64,000 nt of DNA from contig NZ_FNPH01000001.1 in assembly GCF_900107255.1 (NCBI RefSeq), forward strand, positions 868,001-932,000. Direction: 5' to 3'. Both the position numbers and the translations under genes were made by a program. The DNA is from Micromonospora pattaloongensis. GTDB lineage: Bacteria; Actinomycetota; Actinomycetes; Mycobacteriales; Micromonosporaceae. Shown one piece after another: positions 31,569 through 33,593 of the stretch. The notes beneath the pieces were generated by a model. It was not told the DNA's origin. It worked only from the letters and a program-made list of their open reading frames with translations, and ran no database searches. The first letter of the stretch is position 1, and each line of letters opens with the position of its first letter.

Positions 31569-31787
31569 GCGCCAATCCTTCCGTAATGGGACTACCGGCG
31601 CGTTATCTCCCCACAAGCGATCGCGCCCATGCACGCCCCGCGGTTTCGGTACAAGCTCAGCCATTGCCCACTGCAACATCCAGCACCCGTCGGGCCGACA
31701 GTGCGGGCACTCGCTCGATTCGTGTTGACGGACGACCAGACGAGCCGCCCAGGCGATGTCGCTGGCTGTCGGCGGCCCATCGTGCAT
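31569..31787 (-). other. Cys-rich small ORF in frame with PEBP (possible fusion or separate gene that lost its stop)
   Basis: An ATG at 31787 overlaps the stop of the 31-residue ORF (TGATG). It encodes MHDGPPTASDIAWAARLVV, then SECPHCRPDGCWML with a C-x2-C-x4-C cluster, then 30 residues of weaker composition that run without a stop into PEBP. The TGATG coupling and the cysteine pattern suggest a real small protein, possibly metal-binding. Whether it makes a stand-alone or fused 250-residue product cannot be told here. Confidence 0.45.
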
Positions 31788-31882
31788 CAAAGGCGCTTCC
31801 ACAGCGGGCTCGTGACGACAACCAGGAAGATCACGAGGAGTAACGCACCCGGCCACCCGGTCCGCAGCAACATCCGGATCAT
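31787..31882 (-). CDS. 31-residue single-pass membrane peptide
   Basis: ATG overlaps the stop of the 73-residue gene (ATGA). It encodes a basic start (MIRMLLRTGW), one hydrophobic helix (PGALLLVIFLVVVTSP) and a basic end (LWKRL), a typical small membrane peptide. Its stop overlaps the start of the Cys-rich ORF (TGATG). The two back-to-back couplings argue that it is translated. Confidence 0.55.
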   Translation of the reverse strand: MIRMLLRTGWPGALLLVIFLVVVTSPLWKRL

Positions 31883-32100
31883 GACGGATCCATGGGGCGC
31901 TGCCGGATGCCGTAGAGCTGACGCATCCCCATCGTGATCAGAGGAGTGTCCGAGATCATCAACGTCACGGCGTCCCAGGCCGGGCGTTCTGTCGGCGCGC
32001 AGCCCGGGGCGCTCGCGCCGCGTCTCCGGGCATAACTCGTCGCGGGACCGACCATGTCGACCGGTTCGTCGCGTCGCTGGAACCATTTCCATCTGCGCAT
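31879..32100 (-). CDS. 73-residue basic hypothetical protein, first gene of a small-protein operon
   Basis: ATG start with a near-perfect GGAGGT six bases upstream. The N-terminus is strongly basic and aromatic (MRRWKWFQRRDE), the middle is Pro/Ala-rich and the C-terminus has LMISDTPLITMGMRQLYG. No known family. It leads an operon of tightly coupled ORFs (73 aa, 31 aa, Cys-rich ORF, PEBP). Operators shared with the neighbouring XRE regulator lie 210 bp upstream and a strong hairpin sits in its leader. Confidence 0.65.
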   Translation of the reverse strand: MRRWKWFQRRDEPVDMVGPATSYARRRGASAPGCAPTERPAWDAVTLMISDTPLITMGMRQLYGIRQRPMDPS

Positions 32101-32121
32101 GTCGTCACCTCCAGCGCGGAG

Positions 32122-32161
32122 GCGCGGTGGTCCGCCACGGGGGACATGCGGACCACCGCGC
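32122..32161 (-). promoter_or_regulatory. Strong leader hairpin before the small-protein operon
   Basis: Perfect 14-bp stem (32122-32135 with 32148-32161), 12-nt loop, ending six bases before the GGAGGT of the 73-residue gene. There is no T-run, so it could insulate the ribosome site or act as an RNA control element, or be the terminator of read-through from the regulator gene. Confidence 0.55.
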
Positions 32162-32312
32162 CCGGATGAGGCGGGCGCCTACGGGATGAGGGACCGCAGG
32201 CACCTCGCCTTGGGGCGGCCGTCGACGGGCGAGCGGCTACGGGGCTCGGCCTCGGTGCGACGCGCGATCAGACGACCGTGAGGTGACACTACGTAGGTGA
32301 ATGGTGGTCGAT

Positions 32313-32346
32313 GGGTACGTGCTGTACCCGGTTACGGCCCGTACCC
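32313..32346. promoter_or_regulatory. Two tandem 17-bp palindromes matching the XRE regulator's own operator
   Basis: GGGTACGTGCTGTACCC (32313-32329) and GGTTACGGCCCGTACCC (32330-32346, one arm mismatch) lie back to back. They begin right after the stop codon of the XRE regulator and upstream of the small-protein operon. Both share arms and spacing with the palindrome at 33577-33593. Confidence 0.7.
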
Positions 32347-33558
32347 CTACAGCGTTACGCCAGCCCGGCTCGCGAGGTCGACCGCTTCCCAACGAATTGC
32401 CGCCGGAGCGTCGGCGGCCAGCCGGGTCAGCATGTCCCGCGCCGCCGGCGAATACCGCACGGTTTCCGGTGACGTGGCATCCGCCTTCGCGAGCAGGTGA
32501 AGAGTCGCCTCCGGCGCCCCTTCCAGGTCGGCGCCACGTGCGAGTTCCACGTAGTGCCGGCCGCGTCGCTCCGTTGACGGAATCGAGGCCGGATCGAGCG
32601 AGTGGGCCCGCCGCTGCGCCTCGTCCGGATCTCCGAGGTCGACCGCGCACATCACCGCGTACACGTCGACCAGCGGCCGCGAGACCCGCGTACGCAGACC
32701 CACGTAGTCAGCAGGGAGCGCCCGGTGCACCACGTCGCGTGCCGTCCCCCAGTCCGACCAGGCTCCCTGGTCGCCGATGCGAGCACGGGTCAGCGCCATG
32801 CACAAATGCAGGTCGGCGAGCATCTCGGCGTACTCGATCGGGCCATCGGCAACGCGGGGCTCTATCAGCTCCCGCGCCTCGCGCAGCCGTTCGAGCGCTT
32901 CCTCTCCGCGACCGACGGCGCGCAACAGGTGCGCCGCGTACCAAATCGCCTGCGCGACAGCCAGCGGGTCGTCCGCGTCAAGTGCCGCGGTCATGCCGCG
33001 ATCGACCGTCAGCCAGCACAGCTCACGATCTCCGTGCCAGGCCAGGTATGCCTGCGCGAGGTGGTACGCCTGCGCCAGCATCGCCAGCGAGCGACGGCGG
33101 TCAGCGCCCTCATGCAGCCGCGCCGCGCGTTGGGTGGCGTCGAGGAGGCCGGGCAGGATCATTCCGGCCTCCGTACGCTGCTGCCGGGACGTGTGCCACG
33201 TCTGCCATGCCGAATCGACCGCACCGCGCAGGTACTCCGGCGAGTTCGGCTCGCCGTCGACACGAACATGCCAGGCGGTAAGCGCCTTGCGGACATCGTC
33301 CACAGCGGGATGCAGAGGGCGGACATCGAGGGACAGGGTGACAGCCGGGCCGAACAGGTCGCCGAGGTCGCGCACCCCGAGGTGCGGTGCGAGCTGTTGT
33401 GCGGCGCGGAGCGTCAGCGAGCGGCGGCCGGTCTCGATGAACTTGATGGTGGTGGGACTGAGACCTGCGAGCCCGGCAAGGCGCTCGCGGGAGTGACCGG
33501 CGGCGCGGCGCAGACGCTCGACACGGCTGCCGGGGGTGGGTTGCGTCTGATCCGTCAT
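32347..33558 (-). CDS. XRE-family regulator with C-terminal TPR-like domain
   Basis: 403 residues. ATG at 33558 chosen because a GAGG lies six bases upstream and the HTH follows at the usual distance. Residues about 10-65 form the XRE HTH (AGHSRERLAGLAGLSPTTIKFIE). The remainder is alpha-helical with repeated A-x-L motifs (SLAMLAQAYHLAQAYLAWHGD, AQAIWYAAHLLRAVGRGEEAL), like TPRs that sense peptides or partner proteins in PlcR/Rgg-type regulators. The palindrome 19-35 bp before the start suggests autoregulation, and tandem copies upstream of the small-protein operon suggest that operon is its target. Confidence 0.87.
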   Translation of the reverse strand: MTDQTQPTPGSRVERLRRAAGHSRERLAGLAGLSPTTIKFIETGRRSLTLRAAQQLAPHLGVRDLGDLFGPAVTLSLDVRPLHPAVDDVRKALTAWHVRVDGEPNSPEYLRGAVDSAWQTWHTSRQQRTEAGMILPGLLDATQRAARLHEGADRRRSLAMLAQAYHLAQAYLAWHGDRELCWLTVDRGMTAALDADDPLAVAQAIWYAAHLLRAVGRGEEALERLREARELIEPRVADGPIEYAEMLADLHLCMALTRARIGDQGAWSDWGTARDVVHRALPADYVGLRTRVSRPLVDVYAVMCAVDLGDPDEAQRRAHSLDPASIPSTERRGRHYVELARGADLEGAPEATLHLLAKADATSPETVRYSPAARDMLTRLAADAPAAIRWEAVDLASRAGVTL

Positions 33559-33576
33559 GGCACACCTCACCCGGTG

Positions 33577-33593
33577 GGGTACATCGTGTACCC
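33577..33593. promoter_or_regulatory. 17-bp palindromic operator of the XRE-TPR regulator
   Basis: GGGTACATCGTGTACCC, seven-base arms around TCG, 19 bp before the regulator's start. Same arm sequence and length as the tandem sites at 32313-32346. Confidence 0.7.

Follow-up and report, generated by a model that had tools for sequence, protein, structure and literature searches.

We analysed a stretch of 64,000 nucleotides from Micromonospora pattaloongensis (hereafter the window; contig NZ_FNPH01000001.1, positions 868,001 to 932,000 of the forward strand) in which the gene of a regulator, built of an XRE-type helix-turn-helix (HTH) domain and a tetratricopeptide repeat (TPR) part, has the same 17-bp palindrome on both sides. 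The arrangement points, with a probability that we put at roughly 0.7, to a self-contained cassette that combines autorepression of the regulator with class II activation of an exchangeable small-protein operon behind it. From operators, spacings, conservation and covariation at the sequence level, we infer that the dimeric regulator would bind GGGTAC-N5-GTACCC, that it would repress its own gene when bound over its own start site, and that, bound at a second site near -42 (site B) where it would cover the -35 position, it would activate, in class II fashion, a short operon that encodes small proteins. A ligand sensed by the TPR solenoid presumably sets this activity, and the small proteins would serve as exchangeable effectors. 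The features of the locus are as follows (positions in the window).

33640 to 33729, minus strand: tRNA-Ser(tga), border of a variable slot
33596 to 33601, minus strand: predicted -10 hexamer (TACCGT) of the regulator, ending 2 bp before the upstream operator
33577 to 33593: operator ahead of the regulator gene, predicted to serve autorepression, exact palindrome GGGTAC-N5-GTACCC
32347 to 33558, minus strand: XRE-TPR regulator, 403 amino acids, HTH_31 (E 8.5e-9), match to phrog_5823
32330 to 32346: operator site A, abutting the regulator stop codon (32347-32349), one mismatch to the palindrome
32313 to 32329: operator site B, exact palindrome, centre predicted at about -42 of the cargo promoter
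32286 to 32291, minus strand: predicted -10 hexamer (TAGTGT) of the cargo operon, 21 bp past site B, with TANNNT spacing in orthologs
31879 to 32100, minus strand: cargo 1, p73, basic protein of 73 amino acids with a GGAGGT ribosome site
31787 to 31882, minus strand: cargo 2, p31, strain-specific hydrophobic peptide of 31 amino acids, joined by an ATGA overlap
31035 to 31787, minus strand: cargo 3, Cys-rich open reading frame (ORF), joined by a TGATG overlap and running in frame into the PEBP gene
31035 to 31568, minus strand: PEBP/YbhB host gene (PF01161), outside the cassette

The three operator sites and the small ORFs lie where the initial annotation had placed them, with 33577-33593 and 32313-32329 exact and one mismatch at 32330-32346; the ATGA and TGATG junctions likewise hold, all on the minus strand, and the distance from the upstream operator to the ATG is 18 bp rather than the 19 bp first given. 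The palindrome proved not to be abundant, as the whole genome (5,353,873 bases) has exact GGGTAC-N5-GTACCC at two places, both in this locus, so that a wider regulon of exact sites is rejected (sites with mismatches were not searched genome-wide), and the uniqueness of these operators was counted in favour of the cassette. Within the window, six matches with at most 2 mismatches were found against 2.38 expected by shuffling. Each of 200 genomes of the family has between 0 and 10 copies of the exact palindrome (reversed control: 0 to 4), and the three GGGTACAACGTGTACCC sites that were inspected fall within acyl-CoA-ligase-like coding sequence (recognized by eye from GYNVYP).

Homologs of the regulator at E <= 1e-20 were found in 113 of the 200 family genomes. 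The orthologous set comprises 20 loci including our own (58-100% identical), of which 16 have at least 81% regulator identity, and a scan of named genomes places 17 loci in Micromonospora, Plantactinospora, Salinispora, Verrucosispora, Longispora, Catellatospora and one metagenome-assembled genome. In the 16 close loci a degenerate site A, retained in the close-ortholog alignment, lies at most 5 bp past the stop codon and is followed by site B, which has at most one mismatch in 15/16 of them and in 0/4 of the more distant loci. A TANNNT hexamer starts 21-22 bp past site B in 19/20 orthologous loci. With the first base of this hexamer taken as -12, a site that lies 21 bp ahead of it would extend from approximately -50 to -34, with its centre at -42 and the -35 position covered; with start sites predicted in this way, the operator has the position near -41.5/-42 and the fixed phase to the -10 element that characterize class II activation. 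On the other side of the gene, the upstream operator copy is present in all 16 scored orthologous loci, and a -10-like hexamer of the regulator's own promoter ends 0-6 bp before the operator in 19/20, which places the operator over the predicted start site of the regulator. An activator needs phasing and a blocking repressor does not; the fixed 21-22 bp on the cargo side and the loose 0-6 bp on the regulator side thus fit a protein that activates the cargo and represses its own gene. That one regulator controls both units, as had been suspected from the identical operators on the two sides, is well supported at the level of sequence by their conservation in orthologs. RNAalifold found no conserved leader RNA structure.

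The fixed activator geometry appears to extend behind the whole regulator family, well beyond the original observation. We scored 74 chromosomal homologs of 28-41% identity (60 stretches from the homolog list together with L023-L032 and L176-L179) for palindromicity, defined as the number of base pairs (maximum 6) formed by the 17-mer at distance d before each hexamer, with no operator sequence assumed. Palindromicity peaks at d = 21, with a mean of 3.98 of 6 pairs against 1.0-2.4 at other distances. At distances of 20-22 bp, at least 5 pairs were formed in 27/74 (500 shuffles: mean 1.4, maximum 6) and at least 4 pairs in 49/74 (500 shuffles: mean 9.2, maximum 20), and the operator arms vary among homologs (GGGTAC, GGGTAG, GGGCAC, GGGGAG and others). 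Mobile elements carry the same arrangement: homologs were present in 44 plasmid and 21 phage records, and among the 14 plasmids and 4 phages examined, 4 or more pairs are formed at exactly 21 bp in 16/18 loci and 5 or more in 13/18 (1000 shuffles: mean 0.36, maximum 3). Many of the 74 loci are interrelated, and two phages and two plasmids among the 18 are closely related to one another; with the sets dereplicated at 90% TPR identity, 22/61 chromosomal, 12/16 mobile and 9/16 orthologous loci still form 5 or more pairs at exactly 21 bp. As a control, 30 DUF5753-type XRE genes yielded only 2 TANNNT hexamers in the 130 bp downstream.

Among 54 dereplicated loci, residue 36 of the recognition helix covaries with base 4 of the operator half-site (mutual information 1.11 bits, expected 0.19, maximum 0.33 in 200 permutations): glutamate goes with T in 42/48 half-sites, aspartate with G in 14/14, serine with C in 21/24 and threonine with T in 16/16. 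The partial Mantel correlation of the link is 0.21, a value that 15 of 2000 permutations attained. A tree built from the TPR part offers only 4 to 5 independent contrasts per trait, none contrary on average. For D36, the four independent pairs are concordant on average in 3.7 (5' arm) and 3.3 (3' arm) with none opposed; for S36, the average is 1 (5' arm) and 2 (3' arm) of four pairs, opposed in a few pairings, and in the 5' arm most contrasts are without any difference. The link lends suggestive support to direct binding.

Several observations weigh against the cassette and its geometry. Below 4 pairs at 20-22 bp are 25/74 chromosomal homologs, mostly the most distant ones (14 of the 25 lack a scorable hexamer), and 2/18 plasmid and phage loci fail, also within a wider look over 190 bp. 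Among the orthologous loci, L080 has neither arrangement, and L078, L079 and L081 have degenerate downstream sites only. In other homologs the upstream operator is represented by weak 9-of-12 matches only, in 7/38 and 3/16; the upstream copy being confined to the ortholog clade, self-repression through the same site would be a trait of this clade. The tree-aware sign tests of the residue/base link are not significant, with too few pairs to reach significance, and the link as proof of binding is weakened accordingly. It is also conceivable that the regulator represses both units, with site B blocking the -35 region and polymerase until a ligand releases the protein, as in phage CI-type repressors. 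The overlap of the operator with the -35 position and the existence of phage and plasmid relatives fit such double repression, but the 21-bp spacing is held across many operator sequences, which mere blocking would not need, and a good -35 hexamer could hardly coexist with GTACCC at that place, and we regard this possibility as unlikely.

The regulator itself has an HTH_31/HTH_3 domain at its N-terminus (Pfam) followed by a TPR-like remainder, and phrog_5823 covers it in full (residues 6-402 aligned to 4-403 of 404, E 4.7e-71). The closest sequence relatives of the HTH in the Protein Data Bank (PDB) are the C proteins of restriction-modification systems such as C.AhdI. An AlphaFold2 model (pLDDT 86.3, pTM 0.68) consists of the HTH and a helical solenoid. 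In Foldseek, structures of ComR rank first among the PDB entries, at E 3.1e-4 with TM-scores of only 0.29-0.33. VIA-align returned Rap (Z 18.7, root-mean-square deviation 4.1, 256 residues aligned) and PlcR (Z 16.5, root-mean-square deviation 22.4, 269 residues aligned), both amid unrelated TPR proteins of equal Z. The model and the ComR matches bear out the assignment to the TPR type, and the regulator shares with the RRNPP(A) family the combination of HTH and TPR solenoid. These structural matches to ComR, Rap and PlcR give the architecture and are no proof of RRNPP membership.

This architecture, with ComR best in Foldseek, Rap and PlcR among the VIA matches and small ORFs immediately downstream of the regulator, would be in line with RRNPP-like quorum sensing, in which the 31-residue or 73-residue product would be the precursor of a pheromone that the TPR domain recognizes. 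The cargo speaks against it. Orthologs whose regulators are 81-86% identical carry non-homologous cargo, no gene is common to the cargo of all orthologs, and the gene order regulator/73-residue/31-residue/Cys-rich, for which conservation had been considered, recurs in 0/19 of the other orthologous loci whose flanks were compared. A conserved pheromone precursor next to the regulator, the second RRNPP(A) feature, was not found: no short leader ORF is common to 5 or more of 16 orthologous loci, a transmembrane-like small ORF occurs in 1/16, and the p31 membrane peptide is unique to our locus. Relatives of p73 were found in 13/200 family genomes, ours included, and our genome holds four further p73 matches at three places. 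All of 12 further p73 neighbourhoods have, judged by eye, a regulator-like gene a short way upstream; of the ten tested by Pfam, five are GntR, four are HTH_31 and one, a 75-residue prefix, gave no match. That p73 relatives adjoin GntR and other XRE genes, and so are served by unrelated regulators, argues against p73 as the ligand of this regulator. The idea that the small proteins are a peptide signal is thus not supported, and we consider the quorum-sensing explanation very improbable. As a separate observation, p73-like proteins stand beside GntR regulators (L332-L338), in our own genome too (contigs C16, C27 and C20).

Judged from sequence, the small ORFs look like exchangeable effectors rather than a signal. 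The recurring kinds of cargo are Cys-rich proteins of the CPxCRPDGC and PWPC types, small basic proteins, ribbon-helix-helix-like proteins (by eye) and a second XRE-TPR gene. Relatives of the Cys-rich ORF of the CPxCRPDGC type are present at several orthologous loci and in 22/200 family genomes, ours included; genome G047 (L305, L324) has 12 matches to this protein family. In L075-L077 the cargo operon consists of a basic protein of 53-55 amino acids and then a second XRE-TPR regulator, a possible cascade. A toxin-antitoxin-like or defence module, in which the small proteins would be stress-released toxins or immunity effectors, is compatible with the cassette; profile tests place one ortholog next to a type IV restriction enzyme (L063) and another next to a type III methylase with caspase and EACC1 genes (L076). 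Such a role appears quite unlikely, as Pfam gave no significant match for any of ten cargo proteins tested, family searches of our own cargo, which bear on whether a type II toxin lies next to the regulator, gave none either, and our locus lies amid housekeeping-like genes.

Of the claim that the Cys-rich ORF belongs to the operon, the start at 31787 stands, but the ORF has no stop of its own, the frame remaining open to 31035 in frame with PEBP/YbhB (the long ORF matches Pfam PBP at E 4.1e-40). Since PEBP relatives align from the ATG at 31568, a junction effect is the likelier reason for the open frame, and a Cys-rich/PEBP fusion as a real product is the less likely case. The cargo promoter may drive PEBP as well. 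PEBP does not occur in the other 19 orthologous loci; in 7 relatives, PEBP and a quinone oxidoreductase flank tRNA-Ser(tga). The interval between tRNA and PEBP (31569-33640 here) ranges from approximately 1 to 50 kb in relatives (L165-L173), which indicates that the cassette occupies a variable slot. No truly empty slot was found among relatives, the shortest PEBP-tRNA interval inspected (approximately 1.05 kb) containing another gene. Integration targeted to the tRNA was not borne out, there being no copy of the tRNA-Ser 3' end longer than 13 bases elsewhere in the window. Another ortholog (L073) adjoins a phage integrase and GntR, and by eye L065, L075 and L077 likewise have restriction or caspase/EACC1 neighbours.

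We give an even chance to a broader proposal, namely that actinobacterial chromosomes, plasmids and phages carry a large class of portable activator cassettes built on HTH-TPR regulators of the phrog_5823 type. Each regulator gene would be followed at constant distance by a class II promoter of its own, a single residue of the recognition helix would largely determine specificity (E or T reading T, D reading G and S reading C at base 4), and cargo would be exchanged freely. Actinobacterial genomes encode several XRE-TPR regulators with no known target. Should the rule hold, the stretch just behind the gene would directly reveal the target promoter of many of them and, with it, a first specificity code, and a poorly understood class of regulators would become testable. 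The cassettes would then also amount to naturally occurring activator-promoter pairs that are insulated from one another and would supply orthogonal parts for actinomycete engineering, and the tiny Cys-rich and basic proteins may be mobile cargo with functions worth testing.

This arrangement is not described in the titles and abstracts of the literature searched, whose coverage mostly leaves out subscription journals, and the main text of a paper on XRE palindromes (PMC12565409) is without GGGTAC, TPR or Micromonospora. The nearest library entry, the phrog_5823 transcriptional regulator, matches over the full length and gives no mechanism. The XRE-DUF5753/DUF397 pairs of actinomycetes resemble our locus in having an XRE gene next to small genes, and p73 relatives occur beside such XRE genes (named by eye), but they mostly lack a promoter hexamer behind the regulator (2 hexamers in 30). 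In streptococci, comR adjoins comS, and the ComR-ComS system of the RRNPP family shares with ours an HTH-TPR regulator and a palindromic box. The ComR regulon takes in comS (PMC5131891), and RRNPPA genes are reported from several genera of Firmicutes, of which a single one lies outside Bacilli (PMC9765709). Our locus differs in having no conserved pheromone gene, in its swapping cargo and in its host among the Actinomycetota. Lambda CI at PRM/OR2 is an XRE-type HTH dimer centred at -42 that acts by class II activation and represses elsewhere. The predicted position near -42 and the pairing of activation with repression are alike; here, however, the regulator's own gene would be repressed and a separate cargo operon behind it activated, and a TPR domain takes the place of the CI C-terminal domain. 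The C proteins of restriction-modification systems combine repression and activation from paired sites. With those of the C.AhdI type our regulator shares a related HTH sequence and, as proposed, the use of paired sites for repression and activation, whereas it has a TPR domain, would act on two separate promoters and has no restriction gene as cargo.
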